Shown piece by piece: positions 1,596 through 42,894 of a DNA stretch of 47,961 nt. The DNA comes from Spirochaetota bacterium (GTDB taxonomy: Bacteria; Spirochaetota; Spirochaetia; Treponematales; UBA12059). Both the position numbers and the translations under genes were made by a program. The DNA lies in NCBI GenBank assembly GCA_018816345.1, contig JAHIWG010000061.1, forward strand, positions 1 to 47,961, written 5' to 3'. The notes below the pieces were generated by a model. It saw only the letters and a program-made list of their open reading frames with translations. It made no database searches and had not been told where the DNA came from. Within the stretch, counting starts at the first letter, position 1. Every line of letters begins with the position of its first letter.

Positions 1596-2594
1596 TCACG
1601 ATTCGTCCCGCGTCATCCCGGTCCATCGTACCTTGTCGGCCGGCCAGCCCTCGGAGACGGCGGCGCCGACGAGCGCGCCCATCTCGGAGGCGCTCTTCAG
1701 GGGAGCGCCCTCGAGCTCCCAGGCCCCGCCTAGGCTCCTGTACTTGCCCGAGCACAGGTTGTTGAAGGCGCACAGCTCCCATCGCTCCACCCGGCCCCGC
1801 GCCTCCGAGGCGAGGAAGCGCGCGATGCCCCGGACGTTCTCCGCCGAATCGGTCATGCCCGGGATGACGGGAGTGCGTACCCACAGTCGCTTCCGCCGCC
1901 CGCCCGGGGACTCCGACCCCGCGACCATGGCCACGGCCAGCCTGAAGTTATCCCGTATCGCCTCCAGGCTCCCGCCCACGTTGCGCGCGTGGCGCTCCGG
2001 GTCGGAGTCCTTGAGGTCGTAGAGGATAAGATCGGCGTGCTCGCAGGCCGCCTCGAACTGCTCGGGGGAGCACATGCCGCAGGTATCGATCGCGGTGCCG
2101 ACCCCCGCCTCCCGGAGCCTGGACAGGAGGTCCCGGACGAAGGGCGCCTGGAGGCAGGCCTCGCCGCCGGAGACGGTCACTCCGCCATCGTCCCCGAAGT
2201 ACGCCTCGTCCTTGAGGAGCTCGGCGGCCAGTGCCGCGGAGTCCCGCCTCGTTCCCCACAGCTCCATCGCCGCGGCGGGGCACTCGGCGGCGCAGGCCCC
2301 GCACGCCCGGCATCGCGACCTGTCGATGGAGACCCCGTCCCCGCCCAGGCTCAACGCCCCCGCCCCGCACGCGGAGACGCATAGCCCGCAGCCCAGGCAC
2401 CTCGCCTGCGTCCAGCGCGGCTGGGGCGTCGCCTTGATGCTCTCGGGGTTGTGGCACCAGCGGCAACGGAGGGAGCAGCCCTTGAGGAAGAGCGTGGTCC
2501 TGAGGCCCGGGCCGTCCTCCGTGCTCATGCGCTGTATCTCGAGGACCATGCCGCTCGTTTCGGTTACGTTCGTAGCGCCGCCGGGATACGCCAT
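1596..2594 (-). CDS. Glycyl radical enzyme activating enzyme (radical SAM)
   Basis: About 332 residues. The radical-SAM cluster motif CSLRCRWC (CX3CX2C) lies near residue 40 and is followed by an inserted ferredoxin-like domain with two 4Fe-4S motifs (CLGCGLCVSAC and CRACGACAAEC). That layout is typical of activases for non-PFL glycyl radical enzymes. It uses S-adenosylmethionine to abstract hydrogen from the glycine of the partner enzyme. The likely ATG start (2594) overlaps the partner's stop as TGATG, so the two are translationally coupled; an in-frame GTG lies three bases upstream at 2597. The partner is the enzyme encoded immediately upstream. Family call is firm; the substrate class follows from the partner. 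Confidence 0.93.
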   Translation of the reverse strand: MAYPGGATNVTETSGMVLEIQRMSTEDGPGLRTTLFLKGCSLRCRWCHNPESIKATPQPRWTQARCLGCGLCVSACGAGALSLGGDGVSIDRSRCRACGACAAECPAAAMELWGTRRDSAALAAELLKDEAYFGDDGGVTVSGGEACLQAPFVRDLLSRLREAGVGTAIDTCGMCSPEQFEAACEHADLILYDLKDSDPERHARNVGGSLEAIRDNFRLAVAMVAGSESPGGRRKRLWVRTPVIPGMTDSAENVRGIARFLASEARGRVERWELCAFNNLCSGKYRSLGGAWELEGAPLKSASEMGALVGAAVSEGWPADKVRWTGMTRDES

Positions 2595-5119
2595 CACAGC
2601 TTCTCGTGGGAGATCCTGGCTATCACCTCGTCCTGCAGTTCCTTGCCGATGCTCGTGAAGTACGCGTTATAGCCGGTGACGCGCACGAGCAGGTGTCGGT
2701 ACTCGGCGGGGCGCCTCTGCGCGTCGCGCAGGACCTCGGGGTCGAGCATGTTCACCTGGAGGGCCGTGCCGCCGTTCTCCGCGTAGCCGCGCAGGAAGGC
2801 CTTGAACTTGGCCTTGTTCTCCGGCTTCTTGATGAGCGCGGGATTGAAGCTGATCGTATGGCTCGCCCCGTTCGGCAGGACGTTTAGATAGCCGCCCCAG
2901 TCGCCGGCCTCGCCCTTCGCCGCGCGGCCGCCGAGGGCCTTGCCGACGGAGTTGGCGTTAGCGGTCGGTCCGTTGAGGTCGGCCCCGTTGGACGGGCATA
3001 TCGCGTTGGACAGGAACTGATCCTTGGGCCTGCCGTCGGGGCTGGCCGGCAGGATGAAGCCGTCGCCTACCCAATAGTTCCACGACAGCATGCCTGGCCT
3101 GAATCGCCTGCCCGTCGTCCCGGTCTCGTACTTCCAGGTCTCGGCCGTCCACAGCTCCATGACGCGGCGGGCCATGGCGTCGGCCTCGTCGTCGTCCCGG
3201 CCGTACTTCGGCGCCTGGTTCCTGGCCCTCGCCTGGAGGACCTCGTGGCCGACCCAGTTGTCCTTCAGGGCGCTGACGAGCTCGTCCATGGAGCAGGCGC
3301 GCTTCTCGAACACGAGGTAGCGCACGGCAAGCAGGGAGTCCACGGTCGTCGCGAACGTCACCGCCTCTATGGTCACGAAGTTGAGCTCGGGGCCGCCCTG
3401 GGTTATGTCCTTGCCCTTAGCCGCGCAGCCCCGCACGAGGGCGGACAGGTACGGCGTCGGGTGCATCGCGGCGCGCAGCCGGTCGCCGCGCTCGTATAGG
3501 TCGACTATGGCCTTTACTATGGAGCGCGTCTGCTCGGCGTACGCCTCCCAGAACTCCTCGAAGCCCTTGAAGCCCCGGGGATCCCCGGTCGCGGGGCCCT
3601 GCCTGACGGGCTTCTCGGTGACGCCGGTGACGGCGTCCGTGTGCGGCACGAGGGGCATGCCGTTACCGAGGGCCAGCTCCACGGCCTTGAGGAGGTTCAG
3701 GTTGCAATCCACCGTACCGGAGCGGTCGTTCCCGACCATCGTGTTCTCCAGGCAGCCTACGGATGCGTACTCGTGCACGTTGTCCTCGCGTATCAGGCCG
3801 CCGACGCCGGCTAGCCTCGATTCGCGCATCATGCCGGCCATGGATCGCTCGTCGAAGTTGAGGAGGAAGGGCGCGCCCTGGCTCGACGCTATCATGTCCA
3901 CGGCCTTGTCCAGCAAGGCCTCCGGGCTGCCCCGGTGGAGCCTCAGGTTAGGCTTGGGCTCGAGTATGGGCGACATGTCGTCTATCACCTCGAGGAGGAG
4001 GTAGGTAGCGTCGCTCGTCATGTCGACGCCGCCCGGGCCGAGGCCGGAGAGGTTGAAGAGCTGGCCGAAGCCGGCGGTGATGCCCTGGTTGCCTATCCGT
4101 ATCATGGAGTCGTACGCGGTATTGGCGTGCACCCAGAAGCAGCCGAGGATCTCCTTGGCGAAGTCCCGCGTCATGCCGGCGGCCTTAGATTCCTCCCAGA
4201 ACGGCTCCAGCATCCTATCGAGGTTGCCGAATGACACGCCGGGGCCCGGGTAGTTCTCGTCGCTCATCACCAGCATATGGGTCAGCCACAGCGACTGCAC
4301 GGCCTCCCACAGGTCGCGCGCGCCTTCCCAGGGCACCCGGGCGAGGTTGTCGGCCATCCGCCTAAGCTCGCCCTCCCGCGCGGGGTCCTCCTCGAGGGCG
4401 GCTAAGCGGAGCGCTTCGTCGCGATAGCGCGCGGCTAGCTCCCGCGGCATGGAGCAGGCGGTCTTCATCGCCCGTAGCTGGGCGCCCTGCCCGCCCGCGC
4501 GCTCGGCGTCGCTCAAGGCTTCGTACAGCGCGTCGAGCTCCGCGTCTATGGCCTTGAAGCCGTGGCGGAGCACGCGACCGTAATCGGGGATAAGGTGGCC
4601 CGCCGTCGGGCCCGCGTTCCCGAAGCCGTGGTTATGGAAGGCGATAGCGTCATGCCGAAGCCCGGCCTTGCCGTACAGGATCTTCTCGCGCTTCTTCGTC
4701 TGCGCCTTATCGAGGCAGAGGGACGTGTGGATATTGAAGCGGCCGCCGGCCAGCAGGTCCCCGGGCAGTATCTCCTGCGGGAGGCGGTCGAGCATCACCT
4801 TCTTGTTGAACCAGGCCCTGCGCTCGGGCAGGCTCGTCTCCCAGAAGCCCTCTCCCGGCTCAACGCGCTCGGCGACCTGCATATACGAGGTCGTGAAAGT
4901 CTGGAAGAACGCGTAGGTCTCCGGGACGATATGATAATTGCACTCGTTGTAGACGACGTCCCAGGGGGCGCCGTCCGTGAAGCTTATCTGCTGGTTGTTC
5001 CAGGCCCGGCCCGCGCCCTCGAAGTAATAATCCCTGAGGCCTAGCACCCTGGGCGATAAATTCGCCGGCCGCTTGATCCCCGCCTTAGTACCCGGCCTCT
5101 CGATGGCGCGTTCCTGCAT
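2594..5119 (-). CDS. Glycyl radical enzyme, arylacetate-decarboxylase-like
   Basis: 841 residues with the full PFL-type barrel. The glycyl radical motif RVTGYNAYF sits at the C-terminus (Gly near 816) and the thiyl-radical loop is VGCLENTMVGND (Cys near 456, Glu near 458). From memory, a Cys-Leu-Glu loop is found in 4-hydroxyphenylacetate decarboxylase and its relatives, as opposed to the GCVE of glycerol/choline lyases or the CC pair of PFL. A further Glu in the FVTIEAVTFATT block (near 585) resembles a conserved position of that group. HpdB is close to 900 residues and needs a small HpdC subunit; none is encoded here, which leans toward subunit-free types such as indoleacetate or phenylacetate decarboxylases, or a new substrate. 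The start has AGGAGG six bases upstream. Subfamily is inference. Confidence 0.85.
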   Translation of the reverse strand: MQERAIERPGTKAGIKRPANLSPRVLGLRDYYFEGAGRAWNNQQISFTDGAPWDVVYNECNYHIVPETYAFFQTFTTSYMQVAERVEPGEGFWETSLPERRAWFNKKVMLDRLPQEILPGDLLAGGRFNIHTSLCLDKAQTKKREKILYGKAGLRHDAIAFHNHGFGNAGPTAGHLIPDYGRVLRHGFKAIDAELDALYEALSDAERAGGQGAQLRAMKTACSMPRELAARYRDEALRLAALEEDPAREGELRRMADNLARVPWEGARDLWEAVQSLWLTHMLVMSDENYPGPGVSFGNLDRMLEPFWEESKAAGMTRDFAKEILGCFWVHANTAYDSMIRIGNQGITAGFGQLFNLSGLGPGGVDMTSDATYLLLEVIDDMSPILEPKPNLRLHRGSPEALLDKAVDMIASSQGAPFLLNFDERSMAGMMRESRLAGVGGLIREDNVHEYASVGCLENTMVGNDRSGTVDCNLNLLKAVELALGNGMPLVPHTDAVTGVTEKPVRQGPATGDPRGFKGFEEFWEAYAEQTRSIVKAIVDLYERGDRLRAAMHPTPYLSALVRGCAAKGKDITQGGPELNFVTIEAVTFATTVDSLLAVRYLVFEKRACSMDELVSALKDNWVGHEVLQARARNQAPKYGRDDDEADAMARRVMELWTAETWKYETGTTGRRFRPGMLSWNYWVGDGFILPASPDGRPKDQFLSNAICPSNGADLNGPTANANSVGKALGGRAAKGEAGDWGGYLNVLPNGASHTISFNPALIKKPENKAKFKAFLRGYAENGGTALQVNMLDPEVLRDAQRRPAEYRHLLVRVTGYNAYFTSIGKELQDEVIARISHEKL

Positions 5120-5223: not shown

Positions 5224-7215
5224 CTAGATCCTGAAGAACGCCATGGCGCCGTCGAGCTCCCGGGCCCTATCCGCCAGGGCCTCGGCCGTATCCGAGACGA
5301 CCGAGGCCTGGGCCGCTATCTGCTCGCTGGTCGCCGAGAACTCCTCGGAGATGGACGCGTTCTGCTGTATCACGGTATCGAGCTGGGTAACCGCGTCGGC
5401 GATCTGGGTAGCGCCGGAATCCTGCTCCCTAGCCGCGACGGCTATCTCCTGGACCAGCTCCGACGTGCGACGGATATCCGGCACCATCTCGTCGAGCATC
5501 GTGCCGGCCTTCTCGGCGATAGCCACGGAGCTGAGCGATAGCGACGATATCTCGCCCGCGGCCAGCTTCGAGCGCTCGGCCAGCTTCCCTACCTCGCTCG
5601 CCACGACGGCGAAGCCCTTGCCGTGGGCCCCGGCGCGCGCGGCCTCGATGCTCGCGTTAAGGGAGAGCATATTGGTCTGCCTCGCGATATCCTCGATGAC
5701 CGCTATCTTCTCGGCTATCTGCCGCATCGCGAGCACGGTCTCCTTGACCGAGGCGGAGCTCGCCTCGATGTCGCTGGCGGCCTTCTTCGCGATCCGCTCG
5801 GTCTGCGCCGAGTTCTCGGCGCTCTGCTTGATGTTGGCGCTCATCTGCTCTACGGAGGCGGAAACCTGCTCCGCGTTGGCGGCCTGCTCGGTAGCGCCCT
5901 GCGACAACTCCTGGCTGGAGTCGGAGACGCCCTGGATGCCCGTTAGCATCTCGCGGGCCCCGGACGACAGGTCGGAGGAGCTCATGCTTATGGCGTCGCT
6001 CGCCTCCTTGACCTCGCCCACTACCGCGAGCAGCTTCGTCGCCATCGAGTCCATGGCCCCGGCGAGCGCGCCGAGCTCGTCGGCCCTGGCGAGCATCCCC
6101 CGCTCCGGCCGGACGCGCAGGTCGCCCTCGGCTATTGACACCATCAACGCCTGCGCGACCTTGATCGGCCTGGCCACGCTGGTCGCGACGACCGTGATGA
6201 CGACGGCTCCGAGCGCCACGCCGCAGACGCCGAGCGCTATCATCAGCGTCATGAGGCGCCGGACGGGGGCGAGCATCTCGGTCAGGGGCAGGACGAGCGC
6301 CACCGACCACGGCCTGGCGTCGGTTCCGACCCTGACCGGGGAGTAGCGGAGGTACGACATGGCGCCCGTCTGGAGGTTCTTCTTGAAGACGGAGAAATTG
6401 CCCCCCGCCGCTATGGCCGCCAAGTTCTCCGCCTGGCGATCGGGGATATCCTGGCCCACCTGCAAGCCTATCAAGTCGGCCTTAGGATGGACGACTCGCT
6501 TACCCTCGTTATCGGTCATTATGGTATACGAGCCCTCGATGGGCTTGAACGCCGAGACTATATCGGAGATGCTCTTGATGGCGATGGTGCTCCCTACGAC
6601 GCCTATGACCCGGCCGCCTACCAACATCGGGGTAGCGAACCCGGAGTAGAATTTCTCGTCCTCCTTCTTTCCCGTGCTAGACTGGGCGAAGGGCTGTACA
6701 ATGACGTCGACCTTCTCCGTCCTCGCCCGCTCTATGTACGGCGCCTTGCCGGCGGCCTCCGTCCACGGCACCTGGATCACTTTGCGGTCGGGCGAATAGG
6801 TCCACGCGGTCGCGAAGCGCCCGGTCTCGGTCTGCAGGATACCCGCGGCCTTGGCCGCAACCTCGTCGCCCATCGCGCCCGGCTCCATGAAGACCCAAAC
6901 GGCCAACATGCGGGGGTCAGCCTCCAAGGCCGGGAGGATCATCCTGGCGAGGACCTCCCTGTCGCGCAGCCCTGCGCGATACGCGCCTTCGATGGAGCGG
7001 GCGAGGCCCTTTAGAACGAACATGCCGTTCTCGAGCTCTACCTTGACGGACGAGGCTACCCGCTCGGCCATCTCGTCGCCCCTGCTCACTATCTCCGCCT
7101 TGATGACTCGCTCCGCCGTGAAGTACGACGCGAGTATGACCGCGGCCAAGGTGCCTATGAATATCAGGATGGACGGAACAAGTATTTTCTCGCGGATCTT
7201 CAGCTTGAAACGCAT
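5224..7215 (-). CDS. Methyl-accepting chemotaxis protein with dCache-type sensor
   Basis: 663 residues from ATG 7215, chosen because GGGAGG precedes it; the frame extends 30 codons further upstream without a better start. Order: TM1 (about 11-32), a periplasmic dCache-like sensor (about 40-315, with the [13 protein letters not shown]-type strand and a repeated PAS-like half), TM2 (about 321-345), HAMP (about 346-400) and a long cytoplasmic coiled-coil signalling domain. The conserved hairpin tip around residues 510-550 ([15 protein letters not shown] then [17 protein letters not shown]) binds CheA and CheW. dCache sensors usually bind small metabolites; the ligand is unknown. A short inverted repeat (7241-7257) lies in the leader. 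It is transcribed alone toward the glycyl radical operon. Confidence 0.95.
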
Positions 7216-7308
7216 CGGGGCCTCCCGTAAATAGCAAGGCCGTACCTTTCCGGTACGCCCGCTAATAAGCCTATGCTCCTCTTCTCGCTTGTCAATGATG
7301 GGCAAAGT

Positions 7309-7345
7309 AAAAAAAAGGCGTCGCCCCCCCGGAGGGCGCGACGCC
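7309..7345 (-). terminator. Intrinsic terminator after the ato operon
   Basis: Read on the minus strand, an 8-bp perfect stem (GGCGTCGC / GCGACGCC) with a GC-rich loop is followed at once by eight T residues. It lies about 50 bases beyond the thiolase stop and before the chemotaxis receptor's start, so it ends the permease-CoA-transferase-thiolase transcript. Confidence 0.9.
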
Positions 7346-7394: not shown

Positions 7395-8654
7395 TCAGTC
7401 GGCGCGCCTCAATACGGTGACGCAGTTGGTCACCGACGAGCCGCCGACGTTGAGCACGACGCCGACCTCGGGCGCGCCCTTCGCCGGGGCCGCGCCTATG
7501 GGCTGGCCGACGAGCTGCTTATAGAGCAGGGCGTGCATGGAGGCGCCGGTCGCGCCGACCGGGTGGCCCTTCGACTTGAGCCCGCCGGAGAGGTTCACGC
7601 AGACTTCGTCGTCGCGGGTGAAGCGGCCGGCCAGGTAGTCGTCGCCGCCCTCGCCGTCGGCAGAGAGGCCCAGGGCCTCGGTGCACAGGATCTGGTTGAT
7701 GGTGAAGCAGTCGTGCACCTCGGCCACGTCGACGTCCTTGGCCGCTATGCCCGCCTCGGCGAAGGCGAGCCTCGCGGCCTCCTTGGCCGCCATGAGCTCC
7801 CACATGTTGGGGCGCACGTTGATGGCCAGGCGCTCCGTCGTATGCCCTATGCCGGCTATCTCGACGACGGGCTTACCGCGCTTCCGCGCGGACTCGGTGC
7901 TCGTGATGACGAGGGCCGCCGCCCCGTCGGAGACGAGGGAGCAGTCGTGGAGCCGTAGCGGCGACGCTATCATGGGGTTCTTCTCCTCGGGCAGGCCGAG
8001 TATGGCGGCCGCGCTCGACAGGCCTAGCTTATCGGCCGGGGAGCCCTTGCCGAAGTGCGCGAGCGGGTTATCCAGGCCGTTGCGGTAGCACATCGCCGAG
8101 ACCGCCGCCAGCATCTCGGCCAGCTTACGGTCCGACAGCTTATAATGGTCCCGGTAGCCCTTGGCGTACTCGGCGAACAGCCCGGGGAACGTCATGCCCG
8201 TCGCCCCCTCGCTAGCCCAGTGCGACGAGCAGGCGAGGGCGTGGGTCACGCCCTTGGTATCGAGCAGGTTCATCTTCTCGACGCCTATGACGAGGGCCGT
8301 CTCGCATCGTCCCGACTCCACGGCGTAGAGAGCGTTATAGAGCGCCACCGATGAGCTGGCGCAGGCGTCCTCGCAGCGGGTGGCCGACTTGAACCTGAGG
8401 CCCGCCGGGTCCACCTCGAGCGCGTTAGGCGCCAGGTGCTCCTGGTTGGCGAACAGCGACGGCGAGCAGCTGCCCACCCATATGCCGTCGACGCTCCCCG
8501 CCTCGACGCCCGCGTCGGCGAGGGCGCCGCGCCCGGCCTCGTTCAGGAGCTCGTATATCGACTTGAGGTCGGTGACCTCCTTGGTTTCCCTATCCTTCTT
8601 GACGAACGAACCGAAGGCGGTATTATGCGCCCCGATTATGCTTACCTTGCTCAT
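7395..8654 (-). CDS. Thiolase (acetyl-CoA acetyltransferase, SCP2/archaeal type)
   Basis: 419 residues. It carries the nucleophilic cysteine in CEDACASSS (Cys near 98), the HDCF catalytic block near residue 316 and GHPVGATG near the C-terminus. These are the signatures of the SCP2-thiolase/archaeal acetyl-CoA acetyltransferase branch; the classical C-terminal CXGGG cysteine motif of AtoB-type thiolases is not present (NVGGSS is in that place). In this operon it would cleave acetoacetyl-CoA (or a 3-ketoacyl-CoA) to acetyl-CoA in the cytoplasm. It lies 24 bp after CoA-transferase subunit B and is the last gene before the terminator. Function is firm at the thiolase level; the chain length is not known. 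Confidence 0.88.
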
Positions 8655-8678: not shown

Positions 8679-9344
8679 TTAACCTAGATCTACTTCCATG
8701 CAATCCTTATCGACGACGATGTCGGCGTCGGTCTTCTCAAGGATATACTCCACGGTGTAGGGCTTGAAGTACTCCTTCAGCGCGAACGCGCCGCCGCGGA
8801 CCTCGAAGAAGCCGATATCGGTGACGACGTAGTCCACCTCGGCCGCGGCGGTCAACGGCAGCCTGCACCTGCGCAGTAGCTTCGAGGCCCCGCTATTGTC
8901 GAAGTGCTGGGTCGCGGCGAACACCTTCTTGGCGCCGACCGTCAGGTCCATCGCTCCGCCCATGCCCGGGACGAGCTTTCCCGGCACCTTGTAATTGGCG
9001 AGGTTGCCTAGCTGATCGACCTCGAGCACGCCGAGCACCGTGTAGTCCACGTGCCCGCCGCGGATGATGCCGAAGCTGGTAGCCGAGTCGAAGAAGCATC
9101 CGCCCGGCTGGATAGTCACGCAGGCGCCTCCGGCGTTGACGAGCATCGGGTCCTCCTCCCCCTTGGCGGGGGCCGGGCCGAGCCCGAGGAAGCCGTTCTC
9201 CGACTGGAGCACTATAGTGACGCCCGCGGGCACGTAGTTGCCAACCAGGGTCGGGAGCCCTATGCCGAGGTTGACCACGTCGCCGTCGCGGAAGAAGCGC
9301 GCGATGCGCTTGGCTATGTTTTCCTTATTCGCTACGTATTCCAT
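8679..9344 (-). CDS. 3-oxoacid (acetoacetate/butyrate) CoA-transferase subunit B
   Basis: 221 residues of the CoA-transferase beta family. The catalytic glutamate lies in the SENGFLGLGP block (Glu near 49), which forms the enzyme-CoA thioester, and a conserved GGAMDL block follows near residue 128. With subunit A it moves CoA from acetyl-CoA or succinyl-CoA to acetoacetate or a short-chain fatty acid. It starts 10 bp after the stop of the A subunit gene, as expected for a stoichiometric pair. The gene context (permease, two CoA-transferase subunits, thiolase, two-component pair) corresponds to AtoA of the E. coli atoSC-atoDAEB system. The acid actually used cannot be told from the sequence. 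Confidence 0.92.
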   Translation of the reverse strand: MEYVANKENIAKRIARFFRDGDVVNLGIGLPTLVGNYVPAGVTIVLQSENGFLGLGPAPAKGEEDPMLVNAGGACVTIQPGGCFFDSATSFGIIRGGHVDYTVLGVLEVDQLGNLANYKVPGKLVPGMGGAMDLTVGAKKVFAATQHFDNSGASKLLRRCRLPLTAAAEVDYVVTDIGFFEVRGGAFALKEYFKPYTVEYILEKTDADIVVDKDCMEVDLG

Positions 9345-9354
9345 CGCTGTCCCC

Positions 9355-10032
9355 TTACTGCCTGGCCCGGACGAGGTGCGTCACGAAGACTGACGGGGTG
9401 ACGACGACCTCGGGATCGAGCTCGCCTATCTCCACTATCTCGTCGGCCTCCACGATGACCGTCTCGCAGGCGCTGGCCATCAGCGGGTTGAAATTGCGGC
9501 CGGTCTTGTCGTAGGTGAGGTTGCCCGCCTTGTCGGCCTTCTTGGCGCGGATCAGGGCGACGTCGCCCCGGAGGGCCTTCTCCAGGAGGTACTTCCTGCC
9601 GTCTACCTCCACGACCTTCTTGCCTTCCTCGACCTCGGTGCCGACCCCGGTCGGCGTCAGGACGCCGCCGAGCCCCGCTCCGGCGGCTCGGATTATCTCG
9701 GCCAGGGTCCCCTGGGGCACGAGCTGGACTTCCGTCTCCCCGGCGTTCATCTGACGCTGGGTCTCGCCGTTCAGGCCTATGTGCGTCACTATCATCTTCT
9801 TGAACTGCTTCTTGGCCACGAGCCTGGCTACGAACGTCATCTCGCCGGACTTCAGGTTGTGCATGGCCGTGTCGTTGCATACCAGGGTCAGGTTCTTCGT
9901 GCCCTTGCGCTCGAGCGCGTCCAGGAGGCCCGCGGGGGAGCCGCAGCCCATGAACCCGCCGAGCATGACGACGGCCCCTTCCCTGATCAGGTCGACCGCG
10001 GCGTCAGCCGTGATAATCGGTTTTGCTACCAT
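9355..10032 (-). CDS. 3-oxoacid (acetoacetate/butyrate) CoA-transferase subunit A
   Basis: 225 residues from ATG 10032, chosen for TAGGAGC about seven bases upstream; the open frame runs further but without homology. It has the CoA-transferase alpha pattern: the glycine-rich GGFMGCGSPAGLLDAL block near residue 23, which contacts CoA, and the QGTLAE and GVGT blocks near the middle. It pairs with the subunit B gene just downstream, with a 10-bp gap, and corresponds to AtoD. A 131-bp gap with a GC-rich hairpin separates it from the permease gene upstream, so it may be produced at a level different from the permease. Confidence 0.92.
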   Translation of the reverse strand: MVAKPIITADAAVDLIREGAVVMLGGFMGCGSPAGLLDALERKGTKNLTLVCNDTAMHNLKSGEMTFVARLVAKKQFKKMIVTHIGLNGETQRQMNAGETEVQLVPQGTLAEIIRAAGAGLGGVLTPTGVGTEVEEGKKVVEVDGRKYLLEKALRGDVALIRAKKADKAGNLTYDKTGRNFNPLMASACETVIVEADEIVEIGELDPEVVVTPSVFVTHLVRARQ

Positions 10033-10119
10033 AATTAAAGCTCCTATGCGTTCTATGGTCCTATCCCTCCCGGGCGCGGCTTCGAGGCGTGCGTAAGGTC
10101 GTGGCCGGGAGGGTAGGAA

Positions 10120-10143
10120 GGGACCGGGCGAGAGCCCGGCCCC
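10120..10143 (-). other. GC-rich intercistronic hairpin between permease and CoA-transferase genes
   Basis: A 10-bp stem with one mismatch and a 4-base loop lies about 20 bases after the permease stop on the minus strand. There is no following T-run, so it is more likely an mRNA-stabilising or attenuating hairpin than a full terminator. Confidence 0.5.
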
Positions 10144-10163
10144 CCTTATCGAGGCGGCTAGTC

Positions 10164-11498
10164 TTAGAGGAAGAACAATCCGAGCGAAGTGACGATGCCG
10201 GCCCACAGCAGGATGACCGTGGTGTAACCCATGATGTCCTTGATGTTGAGCTTGGCTACGGCGAGCAGCGGGAGGGCCCAGAACGGCTGGATCATGTTGG
10301 TCCAAGCGTCGCCCCAGGCGATGCCCATCGCCGCGCGGCCGTAGGAGACGCCGAGAGCCTCGGCCGCCGGCATCATGATCGGGCCCTGGACGGCCCACTG
10401 CCCGCCGCCGGACGGCACGAACATGTTGACGATGCCCGCCGCGTAGTAGGTGAACAGCTGGAACGTCTTCGGGGTAGAAATCGATACGAACCAGTTGGAC
10501 AGCGTAGCCGCGAGGCCGGAATTCACCATCATGCCCATGATGCCCGCGTAGAAGGGGAACTGCAGGACGATGCCGCCGCAGGTCCTGACCGACTTATCGA
10601 CTGCCTTGACGTACGCGATGGGCGTCCTATGGAACAGGAGCCCGAGTATGAGGAAGATGAAGTTCACCACGTCCAGGCTCAGGGATCCGCCCTTGACGAA
10701 GTACCTGACGGCGAAGACGGCGCCCACGACCACGATGATCAGGGCGAGGACCATCGAGTTCTCCTGCCTCTCGGCGGGGGTCATGTCCTTGCGGGCCTTG
10801 GCCGGAGCCTCGGCTATGTCGTCGTCGGCGAAGATGGCGGGGTCGACCTCGACTATCTCCTCCTTCTTCTTGGGCATCATCAGCATGTTGATGACGGGGA
10901 TGGAGACCAGGAGGACGGCGAGGATGACGAGGGTCTGGGTCGAGAAGATCGTCTCGCTCGTGGGGACGATGGCGCCGTGGGCGAACTTCTCCATGACGGC
11001 GTTCTTGGCGGCTATCGACAGGGGGATGGACGCCGAGAGGCCGGAGTGCCAGACGACGAAGCCGGAGTAGGCGCTGGCGACGAGCAGCGGGTAATGGATA
11101 CCCTTGACCGTCTTGGCTATCTCCTTGGCGAGGATAGCGCTGACGATGAGGCCGAAGCCCCAGTTCAGCCAGCTGCCGATTACCATCACGACCGATACCG
11201 TGATGATGGCCTTGGCCGGGGTATTGGCCTTCTTGGCGATGGCGACCATGACCCTATGGACCGGCTTGGAAATGGCGAGCGCGCTGCCTGTCACGAGGAC
11301 CAGCACCATCTGCATGGAGAACCCGAGCAGGCTCCACATGCCGCCGCCCCAATACGACGCCATATCGAGGAACGAAGTCTTCTGGATTATCATCCCGAGA
11401 GCGAATACGATGATCGTCAAGACGACGGCGAAGACGAACGCGTCCGCTATCCATCGCTTGGCTATCTTCGTAAAGAAATTGCCTAGAGCCCTGACCAT
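10164..11498 (-). CDS. Short-chain fatty acid transporter, AtoE family
   Basis: 444 residues, about ten hydrophobic helices and a cytoplasmic charged loop near residue 220-250 (KKKEEIVEVDPAIFADDD), matching the AtoE/short-chain fatty acid permease family in length and in blocks such as SWLNWGFGLI and FVPSGGGQWAVQGP. It would import butyrate-like acids or acetoacetate across the inner membrane. It is the first gene of the transcript: a sigma-54 promoter ends about 30 bases upstream, and the gene is read together with the CoA-transferase and thiolase genes. The start codon (GTG or ATG region at 11498) follows a GGAGG-like site (GAGGAGG in the leader). Family call is firm. Confidence 0.92.
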   Translation of the reverse strand: MVRALGNFFTKIAKRWIADAFVFAVVLTIIVFALGMIIQKTSFLDMASYWGGGMWSLLGFSMQMVLVLVTGSALAISKPVHRVMVAIAKKANTPAKAIITVSVVMVIGSWLNWGFGLIVSAILAKEIAKTVKGIHYPLLVASAYSGFVVWHSGLSASIPLSIAAKNAVMEKFAHGAIVPTSETIFSTQTLVILAVLLVSIPVINMLMMPKKKEEIVEVDPAIFADDDIAEAPAKARKDMTPAERQENSMVLALIIVVVGAVFAVRYFVKGGSLSLDVVNFIFLILGLLFHRTPIAYVKAVDKSVRTCGGIVLQFPFYAGIMGMMVNSGLAATLSNWFVSISTPKTFQLFTYYAAGIVNMFVPSGGGQWAVQGPIMMPAAEALGVSYGRAAMGIAWGDAWTNMIQPFWALPLLAVAKLNIKDIMGYTTVILLWAGIVTSLGLFFL

Positions 11499-11531
11499 AT
11501 TGGCCTCCTCTTTCTGTAGTACAAGTCTATA

Positions 11532-11548
11532 AGCACGTATCGTGCCAA
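11532..11548 (-). promoter_or_regulatory. Sigma-54 (-24/-12) promoter of the ato operon
   Basis: On the minus strand the sequence TTGGCACG-N4-GTGC carries GG (11545-11546) and GC (11533-11534) separated by exactly 10 bases, the defining spacing of sigma-54 promoters, and seven of the first eight consensus bases (YTGGCACG) are exact. The predicted start is near 11521, about 23 bases before the permease start codon. The window itself encodes sigma-54 and a matching NtrC-type activator immediately upstream. Confidence 0.88.
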
Positions 11549-11618
11549 CTACTGAAAGCGGGTTTTAGCCGTTGAATCGCTTGTATTTACGCAGGATAGA
11601 GTCCCGGGCGCGACGGAC

Positions 11619-11659
11619 GGGTGCAATTTCCAGCGCGCGGCGCGCAATTCTTTGCGCGC
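11619..11659. promoter_or_regulatory. Tandem upstream activator sites (two 20-bp palindromes)
   Basis: The proximal-to-activator site (11640-11659) is a perfect 8-bp inverted repeat with a 4-base spacer, GCGCGCAA/TTGCGCGC. The adjacent site (11619-11638) matches it at 14 of 20 positions in inverted orientation. Their centres are 21 bp apart, two helical turns, and lie about 107 and 128 bases upstream of the predicted start. This is the arrangement expected for an NtrC-type enhancer; E. coli AtoC also binds two adjacent 20-bp palindromes upstream of atoD. Confidence 0.75.
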
Positions 11660-11712
11660 CTCATCACGTCTCTCCTGGCGGCTCCGCGCCCCTCTGGGCG
11701 GTTCCGCGACGC

Positions 11713-13050
11713 CTAGCGGATTTCGTACTTCTCCAGCTTGTATTGGAGATTGCGGATAGAGATACCGAGGTCCTTCGCCGTAGCCGTCCGGCTTCCCTTG
11801 AAGTACGCGAGGCGCCTGAGGATGATATCGTGCTCGAAATCCTCCATCAGGTCCTTGAGCTCCCGCTTGAGCGTCGCGTGGTCGTGCTCCTCGAGGATCA
11901 GAGAGTCGGCTTCTATGGTATCGCCGTCGGCGCAGATGAAGGCCCGCTCGAGGACGTTCTTGAGCTCGCGCACGTTACCGGGCCAGGCGTACCCTCGGAT
12001 GAGGCCCAGGGCCGCCTCGGATAGGCGTATCGACGGGCTGTTGTACTTCCGCTTCAGGAGCTCTATCAGGTACTCGCATATCAGGCGGATATCGTCGCCC
12101 CTATCGCGCAGGGGAGGGACGGTGAAGTGTATGACGTTAAGCCTATAGAATAGGTCCTTCCGGAAGCGGCCAGCCTTGATCTCCTCGGGGAGGTTCTTGT
12201 TGGTTAGCGCGATTATCCTCGTCTCCACGGACACCGGGCTCACGCCCCCTACCCTATAGAAGGTACGTTCCTGCAGGAAATCCAGGAGCTTGGCCTGGAG
12301 CTCGTACGGGATCTCGGTTATCTCGTCCAGGAGCAGCGTGCCTCCGTTAGCCAGTTCGACGCGGCCCTTCTTCTGGGCGCTCGCCCCGGTGAAGCTGCCC
12401 TTCTCGTGGCCGAACAGCTCGGACTCGAAGAGCGTCGCCGGGATGCTCGAGCAGTTCGCGTACACGAGCGGCGCCTGGGCCCCGGACAGCGAGAAGTGGA
12501 TCTGCTTTGCCAGCACGTTCTTGCCGGTGCCCGTCTCGCCGGTCACGAGTATCGGCACGTCCGCGAAGGCCAGCTTGGGTATCAGCGACTTAATGCTCTG
12601 GACGGCCTGGCACTCGCCTATGAAGTCCTCGTAGTACATGCGGTTCTTGTGGAGGTTCCACAGGACCGTATTCTCCTTGCTGACCGAGACGAATTCCAGG
12701 GCGCGCTTGACCGATATGAGTATGGTATCGACGTCGAAGGGCTTTGTTATAAAATCATAAGCCCCGGCCTTCATGGACAGCACGGCGTTGTCCACGGTGC
12801 CGAGGGCCGTTATAACGATCACGGAGAGCATAGGGTTGGCGGCCTTCAGCCTGGGAAGGAGCTCCACGCCGGTGCAATCGGGAAGCATCAGGTCGAGGAT
12901 GCAGAGGTCGGGCTTGTCCCGGGAGACCGAATCCACGGCGGCCGCCCCGCTCTCCGCCTCCACGATCGCGAAGCCTTCCAGCGACAGGAGGTCCTTGAGG
13001 AACTCCCTGACGTTAGCCTCGTCGTCGCAGACCAGTATCTTCTTTACCAC
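11713..13050 (-). CDS. Sigma-54-dependent response regulator, AtoC-like
   Basis: 445 residues in NtrC layout: receiver domain (Asp53 as phosphoacceptor, Lys103 of the ITKPF block), AAA+ domain (Walker A GETGTGKN near 171-178, the sigma-54-contact loop GSFTGA near 218-223, arginine-finger region near 300-310) and a Fis-type helix-turn-helix at the C-terminus. It starts with GTG at 13050, one base after the kinase gene's stop, so kinase and regulator are co-translated. It lies just before the -24/-12 promoter of the permease/CoA-transferase operon and, by position, should activate it. Assignment to the NtrC family is certain; AtoC is inferred from context. Confidence 0.93.
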   Translation of the reverse strand: MVKKILVCDDEANVREFLKDLLSLEGFAIVEAESGAAAVDSVSRDKPDLCILDLMLPDCTGVELLPRLKAANPMLSVIVITALGTVDNAVLSMKAGAYDFITKPFDVDTILISVKRALEFVSVSKENTVLWNLHKNRMYYEDFIGECQAVQSIKSLIPKLAFADVPILVTGETGTGKNVLAKQIHFSLSGAQAPLVYANCSSIPATLFESELFGHEKGSFTGASAQKKGRVELANGGTLLLDEITEIPYELQAKLLDFLQERTFYRVGGVSPVSVETRIIALTNKNLPEEIKAGRFRKDLFYRLNVIHFTVPPLRDRGDDIRLICEYLIELLKRKYNSPSIRLSEAALGLIRGYAWPGNVRELKNVLERAFICADGDTIEADSLILEEHDHATLKRELKDLMEDFEHDIILRRLAYFKGSRTATAKDLGISIRNLQYKLEKYEIR

Positions 13051-35946: not shown

Positions 35947-35974
35947 TTGACAATACTCCGCGATGCTATACCAT
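35947..35974 (+). promoter_or_regulatory. Promoter of rpoN
   Basis: TTGACA (35947-35952), a 16-base spacer and TACCAT (35969-35974; a shifted TATACC overlaps it). It lies about 57 bases before the rpoN start, facing away from the grpE promoter across about 90 bases. The same TTG was read as a possible start of rpoN, but the real start is downstream. Confidence 0.6.
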
Positions 35975-36030
35975 TGATATCAGGGCTTTTCGGCCCGCGC
36001 TACGGCGCGAATCGCGCGGGAGGATCGGGA

Positions 36031-37404
36031 TTGCAGTTTCAGAGACCGTCGATAATCCAGGAGCAACGACAAAAACTAAGCCCGCAGATGATCCAATCGA
36101 TCCGTCTCATGGCTCTGCCCCTCCAAGAGCTTAAAGAAGAAATCCAGCAGGAAATAGAGGCCAATCCGGCGCTCGAGGTACTCGAGGATAGGTCGACTAT
36201 GTCGCTCGAATCGATCCCCGAGGAACGGGAGGCCGATTCGGAGGCCAGCCAGCGATTCGAGAACAGCTCGGACCCGGGCTACAGCCGATCCAACGACGAC
36301 GATTCCGATTCTAAGCGCATGTTCCTCGAGGGCGCGATCACGAGCCCCGAGACGCTCCAGGAGCACCTGCTCTGGCAGCTGAGGCTACAGCCAATATCCC
36401 AGACGCAGCGGGAGATAGGCGAGCGCCTCATACAGAACCTGGACGCGGACGGTTTCCACAAGGACGACCCGTACCTGCTCTGCAAAGGGTCCTCGAGGTC
36501 GAGCGTCGACTCGGTCATGCGCATAGTCCGCGGGCTCGAGCCGGTCGGCGTATGCGTGAAGGACTTCCGCGAGTCCCTCCTCGTGCAGGCGGAGGCCGTC
36601 CCCGGGGCGCCGCCGGGGGTCGTCGATATAATACGCGACCACATGGACCTGCTCGAGCACGGCAAGCACCTCGAGATCCAGAAGCGGCTCGGCCTTGACG
36701 AAGCGGAGATGCACGACGCCCTCGCCTACATCAAGACCCTCTCCCCTTTCCCGGGAAGGCAGTACTCCGCGGAGGAGACGCGGTACGTGACGCCGGACGT
36801 GCAGGTGAAGCTCAAGGACGGCGAATTCGTCATCGTCATAAACGACCAGGAAATACCGGTCATCGGCATCAACCCGTTCTTCGACAGGCTATCCGGGGAA
36901 CGGCACGACAAGGAGACGGACGTCTTCGTCAAGGACAACATACGCCGCGCCAAGTGGTTCATCCAGAGCATACAGCAGCGCAACCGTACCCTGCTCAAGG
37001 TCGTGCGCTCTATCGTGGAATTCCAGAGGCCGTTCTTCGCGCGCGGCCCCAAGCACCTCGCCCCGCTGACGCTCAAGGATATCGCCGTCGAGGTCGGCGT
37101 CCACGAGACGACTATTTCCCGCATCGCCGGAAAGAAGTATGTTCAAACCGACTGGGGGATCTTCGAGCTGCGCTATTTCTTCACTAACAGCATCTCCGGC
37201 TCCGGGAGCAGGGGCTCGAGGTTCTCCAAGAGCGGCGTTAAGCAGGTGATCAAGGAGATCATCGAGAACGAGACGGCCGCGATGTCCGACCAGGACATCA
37301 CCGATATGCTCGCCCGCAAGGGCATCAAGCTAGCGAGGAGGACGGTGGCAAAATACCGCGGAGAACTGAACATGGATTCTTCGTTCGGCCGCAAGCGCGG
37401 CTAG
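36031..37404 (+). CDS. rpoN: RNA polymerase sigma-54 factor
   Basis: 457 residues from a TTG start at 36031, with AGGA six bases upstream; the frame is open further but would have to begin inside the promoter. Order: region I glutamine-rich N-terminus (QRQKLSPQMIQSIRLMALPLQEL), an acidic region II (about 55-80), the core-binding region, the helix-turn-helix (VGVHETTISRIAGKKY, about 355-370), and the RpoN box RRTVAKYR near the C-terminus. It directs RNA polymerase to -24/-12 promoters such as the one before the ato operon in this window, with NtrC-type activators. The hpf gene follows 40 bp downstream. Confidence 0.98.
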   Translation: MQFQRPSIIQEQRQKLSPQMIQSIRLMALPLQELKEEIQQEIEANPALEVLEDRSTMSLESIPEEREADSEASQRFENSSDPGYSRSNDDDSDSKRMFLEGAITSPETLQEHLLWQLRLQPISQTQREIGERLIQNLDADGFHKDDPYLLCKGSSRSSVDSVMRIVRGLEPVGVCVKDFRESLLVQAEAVPGAPPGVVDIIRDHMDLLEHGKHLEIQKRLGLDEAEMHDALAYIKTLSPFPGRQYSAEETRYVTPDVQVKLKDGEFVIVINDQEIPVIGINPFFDRLSGERHDKETDVFVKDNIRRAKWFIQSIQQRNRTLLKVVRSIVEFQRPFFARGPKHLAPLTLKDIAVEVGVHETTISRIAGKKYVQTDWGIFELRYFFTNSISGSGSRGSRFSKSGVKQVIKEIIENETAAMSDQDITDMLARKGIKLARRTVAKYRGELNMDSSFGRKRG

Positions 37405-38876: not shown

Positions 38877-39143
38877 ATGATTGAGAAGATGACCGTCATT
38901 AAGAATAGGGCCGGCATCCACGCCCGGCCCGCCGCTTTGATAGTGCAGACGGCCGGAAAATTCAAATCTAAGATCTCGCTGCAGAAGGGCGACGACCGGA
39001 TCAACGCCAAGAGCATCATGGGCATCATTACCCTCGGCGCCGGGTTCGGGACGGAGATCAAGATCATAGCGGACGGCGAGGACGAGAACGAGGCCTCCGA
39101 GGCCATCGACAGGCTCTTCCAGAACCGCTTCGAAGAGGAGTAA
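38877..39143 (+). CDS. ptsH: Phosphocarrier protein HPr
   Basis: 88 residues from ATG 38877; GGAGA lies eight bases upstream. His15 in the GIHARPAA block is the PTS phosphorylation site and Ser46 in the INAKSIMG block is the HprK target, both at the canonical positions. It shuttles phosphate from enzyme I or acts as a regulator through Ser46-P. No enzyme I or enzyme II gene is in the window. The stop overlaps the next start as TAATG. Confidence 0.97.
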   Translation: MIEKMTVIKNRAGIHARPAALIVQTAGKFKSKISLQKGDDRINAKSIMGIITLGAGFGTEIKIIADGEDENEASEAIDRLFQNRFEEE

Positions 39144-40915
39144 TGCTAGGCCGGGGCATCTCGTCGCGCCGCGCCACCGACCTGACGGTGGTCGCGATGC
39201 TCTACGCCATCGTACTCGCGGGCTCCTTCACGTACCTGCTGAGCGAGATGGGCGGCGGAGAGGGCTTCCCCGGCATCCGTTCCAAGGCGACGGCCGCTAT
39301 CCTGGCCGTAACCCCTACCATGCTCGCCGCCGTCCTCGCCGTTTCCGGCGCGCGCTTCGCCAGGGACTATAAGCGCAGGGCCTGGGGCTATAGGCTACGG
39401 GCGCGCGTGCTCGCGTATTTCGTGGCCGTAGCCGCGATGGCGGCCGTACCGTCGAGCCTCATGCTCGGCATGATAGCCATACGGGCCGTCGAGCTGCCTT
39501 CGTCCGGGCTCGTCCGCTCGGCCCTGAGCGACGGCGTCGACCTGGCGCTGGGCTATTACGCGGATAAGGAGGCGGCGCTACGGTACGCGGCCGAGAACGA
39601 CGTGGCCCCCGTCGTGTCGGCGCGGGGCCTGGACGCGGAGCGCGTGCTCGCGCGCCTCTCGGCGAGGGACTCGTCTATCTGCGCCGTCGAGCTGTTCTCG
39701 GCGGGCCGCTCGGCCTCGTTCGCGGGGGAGCGCTCGGTCAGGTCGAGCCCGGGAGCCGCGGCGATGGACAAGAACGGCTTCCTGCCGCGCCTTTCTTCCG
39801 GAGGCAGGAGCTACGCCCGGTACTTCGCGAGCGACGCGGGCGAGACCGAGGCGGGCAGGGTTTCCGCGGTCGTCTCGCTCTGCTTCGACGAGGAAACCGA
39901 GTACGCCGCGGCCGGCCTATCGGCGGCGCTATCGACGCTGGAGCGATCGGGACGCATCGCCGGATCGTTCCCCCTCTACCTGATATTCTTCGGCGCCTGC
40001 CTCGCCTCGCCCTTCCTCGCGATGGCCCTGCTGTTCGCGCTCGGCGCGTCCGACCGCCTCCTCAGGCCCATAGCCGCCCTTTCGGACGCTATCGCGAGGG
40101 TCGGTTCAGGCGCCAGGAGGGCGCCGTTTTTGGCCAAGCCGGGCGACGAGGCGGGGGAGCTCGTCGAATCGCTCAACCGCGTGCTCGAGGACCTGGAACG
40201 GTCGCGGGGCGACGAGCTTCGTAGCGAGAAGATAGGCGCCTGGCGCGATATCGCGAGGAAGCTGGCGCACGAGCTGCGAAACCCCCTCACCCCCATACGG
40301 CTGTCGGCCGAGAGGGTGCTGAAGCGCTGGAATAACGATCCTTCGTCCATAGGCGACATCCTGGAGAGGTCCATGGTGGCCATAGTCCAGGAAACGGCCA
40401 ATATGGAATCGCTCCTGACCGAGTTCAGGGACTTCGCCAGGCTCCCGGAGCCCCAGAAAGACTGGATGGAGCTGAAACCCACGGTAGAGGAGGTCGTCCA
40501 CCTGTATTCGGCGTCGTGGCCGGCCCTCGAGATAGATTGCCGCGAAATCGATCCCGGGATAAGCCTCAAGGCCGACAGGGGCTACCTGAAGCAGGCCCTC
40601 GGTAACCTTATCGCCAACGCCGCGGACGCGACTGATCGCCGGGGCCACGTCTGGATCAGGGCCGATCTTGTCAAAACGGCCGAATCCAGGTACTGTAGGA
40701 TACAGGTCAGGGACGACGGCCACGGCATACCGAGCGACGTCCAAGACAAGGTTTTTTCACCGTACTTCACGACGAAGCCGGGCGGCACCGGTCTCGGGTT
40801 GGCCATAGTCGAGCATATCGTAGCCGCGCACGGCGGGAAAATCCGTTTCGACTCCGGCCCGAACGCCGGTACGGTATTCTATATAGACCTGCCGGCGGAG
40901 AGCATTATCGAATAA
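39143..40915 (+). CDS. Sensor histidine kinase, NtrY-like
   Basis: 590 residues whose start overlaps the HPr stop (TAATG), so it is translationally coupled. It has three N-terminal helices (about 15-35, 48-70 and 90-113), a periplasmic domain (about 115-275), TM4 (about 276-301), a HAMP region, then HisKA with His376 in AHELRNPLTP and an HATPase domain ending GGTGLGLAIVEHIVAAHGG. Unlike typical NtrY it has no clear PAS domain. It phosphorylates the NtrX-like regulator next to it. Coupling to HPr hints that it reads a PTS-related signal, which is inference. Confidence 0.9.
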   Translation: MLGRGISSRRATDLTVVAMLYAIVLAGSFTYLLSEMGGGEGFPGIRSKATAAILAVTPTMLAAVLAVSGARFARDYKRRAWGYRLRARVLAYFVAVAAMAAVPSSLMLGMIAIRAVELPSSGLVRSALSDGVDLALGYYADKEAALRYAAENDVAPVVSARGLDAERVLARLSARDSSICAVELFSAGRSASFAGERSVRSSPGAAAMDKNGFLPRLSSGGRSYARYFASDAGETEAGRVSAVVSLCFDEETEYAAAGLSAALSTLERSGRIAGSFPLYLIFFGACLASPFLAMALLFALGASDRLLRPIAALSDAIARVGSGARRAPFLAKPGDEAGELVESLNRVLEDLERSRGDELRSEKIGAWRDIARKLAHELRNPLTPIRLSAERVLKRWNNDPSSIGDILERSMVAIVQETANMESLLTEFRDFARLPEPQKDWMELKPTVEEVVHLYSASWPALEIDCREIDPGISLKADRGYLKQALGNLIANAADATDRRGHVWIRADLVKTAESRYCRIQVRDDGHGIPSDVQDKVFSPYFTTKPGGTGLGLAIVEHIVAAHGGKIRFDSGPNAGTVFYIDLPAESIIE

Positions 40916-40927
40916 AGGAAGTCATGC

Positions 40928-42292
40928 ATGGGCGCCATCCTCGTAATCGACGACGAACCCGGGATACGGGCCACCGTAAAGGATATCCTCGAGGACGAGG
41001 GCTATCGCGCCCTGACGGCGGAAGACGGTTACGCTGGCCTCGACCTGCTGCGGGTCGAGAGCGTCGACGTCGTGATCCTGGACGTCTGGCTGCCTAAGAT
41101 GGGCGGCATCGACGTCCTCAAGGCCATCAAGGCGGACCATCCGGCGGTCGAGACCATAGTCGTCTCGGGCCACGCCTCCATCGACATGGCCGTCAGCGCC
41201 GTCAAGCTAGGCGCTTTCGACTTCATCGAGAAACCGCTATCGATAGAGCGGCTGATAACGGCCGTCCGCAACGCGAGGGCCCTATCGGACCTCCGGCTCG
41301 AGAACGCCAGGCTCAAGCGGACCAAGGCGGAAGGCGACGATATCATAGGCGTCTCGGCCAAGATGACGGAGGTACGGGAGCTCATAGACCAGAGCGCGCG
41401 ATCCGACGCCAGGGTGCTCGTGACCGGCGAGAACGGCACCGGCAAGGAGCTGGCCGCGAGGCGCATCCACGAGCTCTCGGCGAGGTCGGGAGGGCCCTTC
41501 GTAGCGGTCAACTGCGCCGCGATGCCGGATACGCTGATAGAGAGCGAGCTGTTCGGCCACGAGAAGGGCTCGTTTACCGACGCCGTGGCCAGGCGCAAGG
41601 GCAAGTTCGAGACGGCCCATACCGGGACGCTATTCCTGGACGAGATAGCCGACATGTCGCTCTCGGCCCAATCGAAGGTGCTCCGCGCCATCCAGGAGAT
41701 GCGCTTCGAGCGCCTCGGTGGCGAACAGACGATAGAGGTGGACGTGCGCGTCGTCGCGGCCACCAACAAGGACCTACGGCAAGAGATAGCCGCCGGCCGC
41801 TTCAGGGAGGACCTGTTCTTCAGGCTCAACGTCATACCGCTCCGGATGCCGGCCCTGCGCGAGCGCGTGGAGGACATACCCGCGCTCGCGGACTTCTTCC
41901 TGGAGCGGCTCGCGGGCCAGCCGAGGAGGAGGCTCTCGAGGGGAGCGCTCGAGGTCCTATCGGCCTACGCCTGGCCGGGCAACGTCCGCGAGCTCAAGAA
42001 TTTCATGGAGCGCGTCTCGGTCATGAGCGACGAGGACGAGATATCGGCCGAGACGGTCGAGCATTTCATAGCGCGATCCGACGGAAAGGCGCCCGAAGTC
42101 GCCCCCGATCGGCTCGACACGCTATCCGACCTTAGGCTAGCGGAGGCCAGAGAAGCCTTCGAACGAGGATTCTTAGTGCACAATTTACGGAAACACGGTT
42201 ATAATATCGCCAAGACAGCAGAGTCCATAGGCGTTTACCCGAGCAACCTGCACGCCAAGATCAAGAAATTCGGTATAGAGGCCGGCGAATGA
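40928..42292 (+). CDS. Sigma-54-type response regulator, NtrX-like
   Basis: 454 residues: receiver domain (Asp52 phosphoacceptor, Lys102 region), AAA+ domain (Walker A GENGTGKE near 167-174), and a C-terminal Fis-type helix-turn-helix. The sigma-54-contact loop reads GSFTDA (near 214-219), with Asp where the consensus GAFTGA has Gly. Such a change can alter coupling to sigma-54, so it may act as a non-standard activator. It starts 12 bp after the kinase stop, and the lexA start overlaps its stop (ATGA). Confidence 0.9.
   Translation: MGAILVIDDEPGIRATVKDILEDEGYRALTAEDGYAGLDLLRVESVDVVILDVWLPKMGGIDVLKAIKADHPAVETIVVSGHASIDMAVSAVKLGAFDFIEKPLSIERLITAVRNARALSDLRLENARLKRTKAEGDDIIGVSAKMTEVRELIDQSARSDARVLVTGENGTGKELAARRIHELSARSGGPFVAVNCAAMPDTLIESELFGHEKGSFTDAVARRKGKFETAHTGTLFLDEIADMSLSAQSKVLRAIQEMRFERLGGEQTIEVDVRVVAATNKDLRQEIAAGRFREDLFFRLNVIPLRMPALRERVEDIPALADFFLERLAGQPRRRLSRGALEVLSAYAWPGNVRELKNFMERVSVMSDEDEISAETVEHFIARSDGKAPEVAPDRLDTLSDLRLAEAREAFERGFLVHNLRKHGYNIAKTAESIGVYPSNLHAKIKKFGIEAGE
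42177..42205 (+). promoter_or_regulatory. Possible internal promoter for lexA inside ntrX
   Basis: TGCACA (42177-42182), a 17-base spacer and the perfect -10 TATAAT (42200-42205), about 84 bases before the lexA start, in a short AT-rich patch of the ntrX coding sequence. It could give lexA-holA expression independent of the upstream genes. Confidence 0.45.
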
Positions 42293-42894
42293 ATGACTTG
42301 ACGGATCGCCAGAAAGAAGTCCTCGACTACATCGAGGCGTTCATCGAGACGAACCCCTACCCCCCCACCATCAGGGAGATAGCGGCGAATTTCGGCATGT
42401 CCGTGAAGGGCGCCTACGATCACCTGAAGGCGCTCGAGCGCAAGGGCCGGATCCGGGCCGGGGGCGGCCGCTCCAGGAAAATCGAGATTATCGGCAAGTC
42501 GCTCAAGTCGGGACGGTCCCAGACTATCGAGGTACCCGTCCTGGGCTCGGTGGCCGCCGGCAAGCCCATCTTCGCGGAGGAGAACTACGAGTCCAGCGTC
42601 CACGTGCCGACGTCGATGGTAGGCGCGCAGCGCTGCTTCGCGCTCCGGGTCCGCGGCGACAGCATGATAAAGGCGGGGATACTGGACGGGGATATCGCGG
42701 TCATCGAGCAGCGGCAGGTCGCCGCCGACGGGGAGATAGTAGTAGCCGCGATCGAGGATTCCGTGACGCTCAAGCGCTTCTTCAAGGAAAAGAGCAGGAT
42801 CAGGCTAGAGCCCGAGAACGATTCCTACGCTCCGATCTTTACCCAGGACGCCAGGATACTTGGCAAGCTCCGCGGCATAGTCCGTACCTACTAG
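42289..42894 (+). CDS. lexA: LexA repressor
   Basis: 201 residues whose start overlaps the ntrX stop. The winged-helix DNA-binding domain spans about 1-70. The autocleavage site is Ala90-Gly91 (VAAGKP), with Ser125 (RGDSM) and Lys162 (VTLKRF) as the catalytic pair, all in the spacing of E. coli LexA (84/85, 119 and 156). It represses SOS genes and is cut when RecA is activated. Its binding box in this organism cannot be read from this window. The next gene, holA, starts 6 bp downstream. Confidence 0.97.
   Translation: MNDLTDRQKEVLDYIEAFIETNPYPPTIREIAANFGMSVKGAYDHLKALERKGRIRAGGGRSRKIEIIGKSLKSGRSQTIEVPVLGSVAAGKPIFAEENYESSVHVPTSMVGAQRCFALRVRGDSMIKAGILDGDIAVIEQRQVAADGEIVVAAIEDSVTLKRFFKEKSRIRLEPENDSYAPIFTQDARILGKLRGIVRTY

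Follow-up and report, generated by a model that had tools for sequence, protein, structure and literature searches.

A putative AtoSC-type, sigma-54-dependent switch in front of a spirochaete ato operon

The window, by which we mean the whole 47,961-nt stretch of DNA analysed, carries on its minus strand genes for an AtoS-like kinase and an AtoC-like regulator, then a 214-bp gap (11499-11712) between the regulator gene and the permease gene, and then atoE, atoD, atoA, a thiolase gene and a hairpin (Table 1). As the preliminary description had stated, the AtoSC-like pair lies just upstream of the operon and rpoN is also present in the window. The operon content, namely a short-chain acid permease, two CoA-transferase subunits and a thiolase, is that of AtoSC-controlled ato operons.

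Table 1. Positions in the window of the genes and predicted control elements.
Feature	Position	Strand	Basis
AtoS-like sensor histidine kinase, 600 aa	13052..14854	-	NCBIfam AtoS best match, residues 2-596
AtoC-like response regulator, 445 aa	11713..13050	-	Pfam Response_reg, Sigma54_activat, HTH_8
Distal AtoC-type candidate operator GCGCGCAAAGAATTGCGCGC (GCGCGCAA-AGAA-TTGCGCGC)	11640..11659	-	Perfect 8+8 palindrome
Proximal AtoC-type candidate operator GCGCTGGAAATTGCAC	11621..11636	-	One strong half only
Sigma-54 -24/-12 promoter TTGGCACG-ATAC-GTGCT (whole: TTGGCACGATACGTGCT)	11532..11548	-	16/17 consensus positions
atoE-type short-chain fatty acid permease	10164..11498	-	Pfam SCFA_trans, 519.6 bits
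CoA-transferase subunit alpha, atoD-like	9355..10032	-	NCBIfam TIGR02429 above cut-off; ATG at 10032
CoA-transferase subunit beta, atoA-like	8679..9344	-	NCBIfam TIGR02428 above cut-off
Thiolase-domain (SCP2-like) thiolase, not AtoB	7395..8654	-	Pfam Thiolase_N, Thiolase_C_1
Probable intrinsic terminator ending the operon	7309..7345	-	GC-rich hairpin, ~ -26 kcal/mol, then eight T
rpoN, sigma-54 factor	35947..37404	+	TIGR02395, 415 bits vs cut-off 277

The kinase scored 438.7 bits against the NCBI equivalog AtoS (NF008468), below its cut-off of 646, and was 29% identical to E. coli AtoS over its full length, including the N-terminal sensor region, where the likeness between the two proteins was strong. 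The regulator, which combines a receiver domain, a sigma-54 AAA+ domain and a Fis-type HTH, had NCBIfam AtoC (NF008469) as its best match at 412.4 bits, below the equivalog cut-off of 714; it is related to E. coli AtoC over its full length (39% identity) and has a similar recognition region (GISIRNLQYKLEKY vs GISRRALMYKLQEY). In a regulator tree, the ato-linked regulators did not form one clade, with three label changes and weak deep branches. Since the equivalog scores fell below cut-off and the tree gave no clear support for orthology with E. coli AtoC, we use the names AtoS-like and AtoC-like. A second kinase-regulator pair, NtrX-like, is encoded on the plus strand (39143-42894), its regulator scoring 481 bits to NtrX against a cut-off of 600, and is directly followed by lexA.

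Within the operon, the permease was 41% identical to E. coli AtoE, and its nearest relatives were all Spirochaetota records, in line with an origin of the window in the metagenome assembly of an uncultured spirochaete. The atoD-like subunit fell below the cut-off of the NCBIfam acetate CoA-transferase alpha family. The thiolase matched PRK07516, a thiolase domain-containing protein, best among NCBIfam families, with a score below the PRK07516 cut-off. The operon had been described as ato-type, and this stands for the permease and the CoA-transferase subunits, but the gene in the "atoB" position encodes a thiolase of another subfamily. One close relative (L032) has an AtoB-type thiolase (61% identical to E. 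coli AtoB) at that place, and the last operon gene is thus replaced among close relatives. We also observed a GC-rich hairpin between atoE and atoD (10085-10165, minus strand; ~ -31 kcal/mol for the stretch, no T-run), which may serve in the processing or stability of the RNA. Directly behind the operon terminator lies a minus-strand chemotaxis receptor gene (5224-7305), whose product has HAMP and signalling domains as well as a weak match to dCache. Because only the two ato sites stood out when the window was scanned with a leave-out matrix, this receptor gene has no AtoC-type site of its own in that scan. Farther along the same strand is a gene for a glycyl radical enzyme of the PFL2/dehydratase type (1596-5119), beside which there may be an activase gene, a guess made from position.

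The 214-bp gap contains a strong match to a sigma-54 promoter. The preliminary description had claimed such a promoter about 23 nt before the permease gene, and this was borne out: the GG-to-GC spacing is 10 bases, correct for the class, and 2,000 dinucleotide shuffles applied to the gap never gave a promoter score as high as the observed one. The predicted transcription start, at about 11521, is 23 nt 5′ of the permease ATG at 11498. If the operon were instead driven by a sigma-70-type promoter, the sigma-54 match would be decayed or minor; however, no sigma-70-type match was seen in 9900-11800, and both the sequence and the place of the sigma-54 promoter are kept in the 12 related loci described below, with 16 or 17 of 17 consensus matches in the relatives and 47-49 nt from the promoter GG to the ATG in 11 of the 12 loci (92 nt in the remaining one). 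We consider a sigma-70-driven operon the least probable of the alternatives weighed here, with hardly any chance of being correct.

Upstream of this promoter are two AtoC-type candidate operators, which were the highest-scoring places in the window under a matrix built without this genome. The distal site (17.25 bits) is centred at 11649.5, about -128 from the predicted start, and the proximal site (12.43 bits) at 11628.5, about -107, so that the centres are 21 bp, or two helical turns, apart. The score of the operator pair was likewise unmatched in the 2,000 shuffles. In the proximal site, the promoter-side half TTGCAC is strong and the other half weak, making it at best an imperfect palindrome. 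The two sites had been presented as tandem palindromes, and while their tandem arrangement, positions and spacing held, "two palindromes" was overstated, since in each of the 12 loci only one half of the proximal site is strong.

We then asked how widely this arrangement is kept, using a set of 12 loci made up of the window and 11 related spirochaete loci with regulators 70-86% identical. The operator pair and the promoter layout were found in all 11 other loci, so the sites are conserved upstream of homologous operons, and promoter and tandem sites exceeded shuffle expectation at every one of the 12 loci. Site centres were 21 bp apart, except in two of the 12 loci, where the spacing was 22 bp. 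The distal site was a full palindrome in nearly every locus. The TTGC half of the proximal site was kept in 12/12 loci, and an opposite GCAA half occurred in 0/12. From the proximal site to the promoter GG, the distance varied from ~72 to 193 bp across the related loci, and therefore it is the elements that are kept and not the stretch between them. Operator-promoter distances clustered loosely on the 10.5-bp helical repeat (R 0.68, p ~0.004, uncorrected for kinship), which is only a hint of helical phasing because the genomes compared are related. A more distant Thalassospirochaeta locus had GTGCAGAAATTTGCAC and CTGCAAAACCCTGCAT at 21 bp together with a weaker promoter. As a contrast set, we examined 15 further spirochaete AtoE loci, 14 of them with no adjacent regulator; in these 14, no promoter match exceeded 13/17, and the single locus with an adjacent regulator had a match of 14/17.

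The position of the sites allows a different reading, in which the palindromes mainly end the atoSC transcript as a terminator or mRNA hairpin and resemble an operator only secondarily. The stop codon of the regulator gene does lie directly before them, and their RNA can fold; in two Firmicutes loci an AtoC-type palindrome is followed by a T-run (5741-5760 in L096, 4553-4572 in L097), so that there the palindrome may double as the terminator of the regulator transcript. On the minus strand of the window, however, no T-run follows the palindromes and the scan reported no terminator on that strand. Moreover, termination leaves unexplained both the asymmetric second site at a fixed 21 bp and the match to E. 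coli AtoC sites described next. We therefore regard a mainly terminator function as very unlikely.

The preliminary description had held that the operator sequence differs from that of E. coli, and this proved incorrect. A matrix trained on 24 spirochaete sites, with E. coli excluded, was used to scan 10 kb around atoSC-atoDAEB of E. coli K-12, and the AtoC sites upstream of atoD ranked first and second. These sites, CTATGCAGAAATTTGCACAG and GTGCGCAATTTTCTGCATAG, lie 173 and 154 bp before atoD and scored 16.7 and 16.4 bits, compared with 10.6 bits for the third-ranked place; scores like those of the top pair are expected by chance at ~1.6e-6 per bp. Their location fits the one given for the verified AtoC element, an inverted sequence of 40 bp that lies upstream of the start of atoDAEB (PMC3118216). 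Judged by its sequence, the candidate spirochaete operator is of the RYGCAR-N4-YTGCRY class, the same as the E. coli AtoC sites.

Beyond the operator class, the two systems share the order of kinase, regulator, tandem operator, sigma-54 promoter and operon, site centres about two helical turns apart, and related kinase sensor regions, permeases and CoA-transferase subunits. Site centres lie upstream of the promoter GG in both, by 94.5 and 113.5 bp in E. coli and by 82.5 and 103.5 bp here. They differ in site spacing (19 bp in E. coli, 21 bp here) and in site symmetry: the strong halves of the E. coli sites face each other, whereas in the window both halves are strong in the distal site and a single half in the proximal one. 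In place of the other-subfamily thiolase E. coli has AtoB, and its permease gene is third rather than first. The gene order thus differs from that of E. coli, as had been claimed, but permease-first is not special, since Desulfoluna limicola and HGW-Firmicutes-12 have the same order. Both of these share with the window a kinase, a regulator, a permease-first E-D-A operon and a sigma-54-like promoter; HGW-Firmicutes-12 (L097) in addition carries a tandem operator that matches, with a spacing of 21 bp, whereas the matrix found none in Desulfoluna, nor any operator pair in a Syntrophomonadaceae locus that likewise has AtoSC-like genes. A regulon reconstruction in Clostridiales assigned an operon with atoE to another sigma-54 activator, AhcR (PMC6615313). 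This resembles our locus in that a sigma-54 activator controls an atoE-containing operon, but the sites of AhcR consist of TGT/ACA repeats separated by 10-12 bp and are not of the AtoC class. Our literature search turned up no description of control by AtoC in spirochaetes, though this does not prove that none exists.

We next considered which regulator might use these sites, and how many targets it might have. The genome carries ~16 loci homologous to the AAA+ domain of sigma-54 activators, compared with an average of 1-2 sigma-54 activators in spirochaetes (PMC3162934), and the sites could in principle belong to one of these rather than to the adjacent AtoC-like regulator. Yet sites, regulator and operon occur together in 12/12 loci, the same operator class adjoins E. 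coli AtoC, and the tandem operator occurs once per genome, and so we think another activator improbable, to about the same degree as a terminator function. A search for the single palindrome with ≤3 mismatches was rejected as a way of naming a regulon; because its genome-wide matches were mostly no better than those of a reversed-pattern control, we adopted a tandem pattern with three strong halves and applied it, again next to its reversed pattern, to 11 genomes. The exact tandem operator was present in 8 of the 11 and, in those eight, only at the ato locus. Two of the other three have the 22-bp spacing, which lies outside the pattern, and one has an ato pair with one mismatch; in the 11 genomes, one-mismatch matches elsewhere did not outnumber those of the reversed control. 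Since exact matches were confined to the ato locus, the regulator probably has a single target, although the genomes are incomplete assemblies in which a site may have been missed. By comparison, some 22 additional binding places have been reported for AtoC in E. coli (PMC3118216).

Taken together, the sequence establishes the parts and their order, shows that the 12 related loci keep the layout, and places the candidate operator in the class of the E. coli AtoC sites. We propose that an AtoSC-type, sigma-54-dependent switch drives the spirochaete ato operon, and we put the probability of this at roughly 0.87. AtoSC-type control had also been predicted in the preliminary description, and the tandem AtoC-class sites, the sigma-54 promoter and the AtoSC-like pair agree with it; the locus is a well-supported new spirochaete case of the known AtoSC system and not a new type of system. 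By analogy with E. coli and from general knowledge of sigma-54 activators, we infer the inducer, the phosphorelay, binding by the adjacent regulator, cooperativity, looping and the transcription start. In this scheme, the AtoS-like kinase would detect a signal from a short-chain acid, probably acetoacetate or one related to it, and would phosphorylate the AtoC-like regulator, which would then bind the full distal palindrome and cooperatively help occupancy of the weaker proximal site 21 bp away. The AAA+ ring of the regulator would assemble at the tandem sites and, by looping to sigma-54 RNA polymerase at the -24/-12 promoter, would open the promoter, and transcription of atoE-atoD-atoA-thiolase would run to the predicted terminator.

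The AtoC operator consensus had remained elusive from E. coli alone (PMC3118216), and the spirochaete sites yield a clean one. The same enhancer code occurs far outside Gammaproteobacteria, and with this consensus many genomes can be tested for the true AtoC regulon. The result helps annotation, while the mechanism is unsurprising. More tentatively, and at somewhat less than even odds in our estimation, the AtoC operator may have stayed recognisable across spirochaetes, Gammaproteobacteria and Firmicutes as part of one regulatory cassette, which in spirochaetes would have a single target and a fixed arrangement of strong distal and half-strength proximal sites. If this is true, it would suggest that AtoC has the dedicated control of the ato operon as its core role, with the wide binding reported in E. 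coli being secondary.
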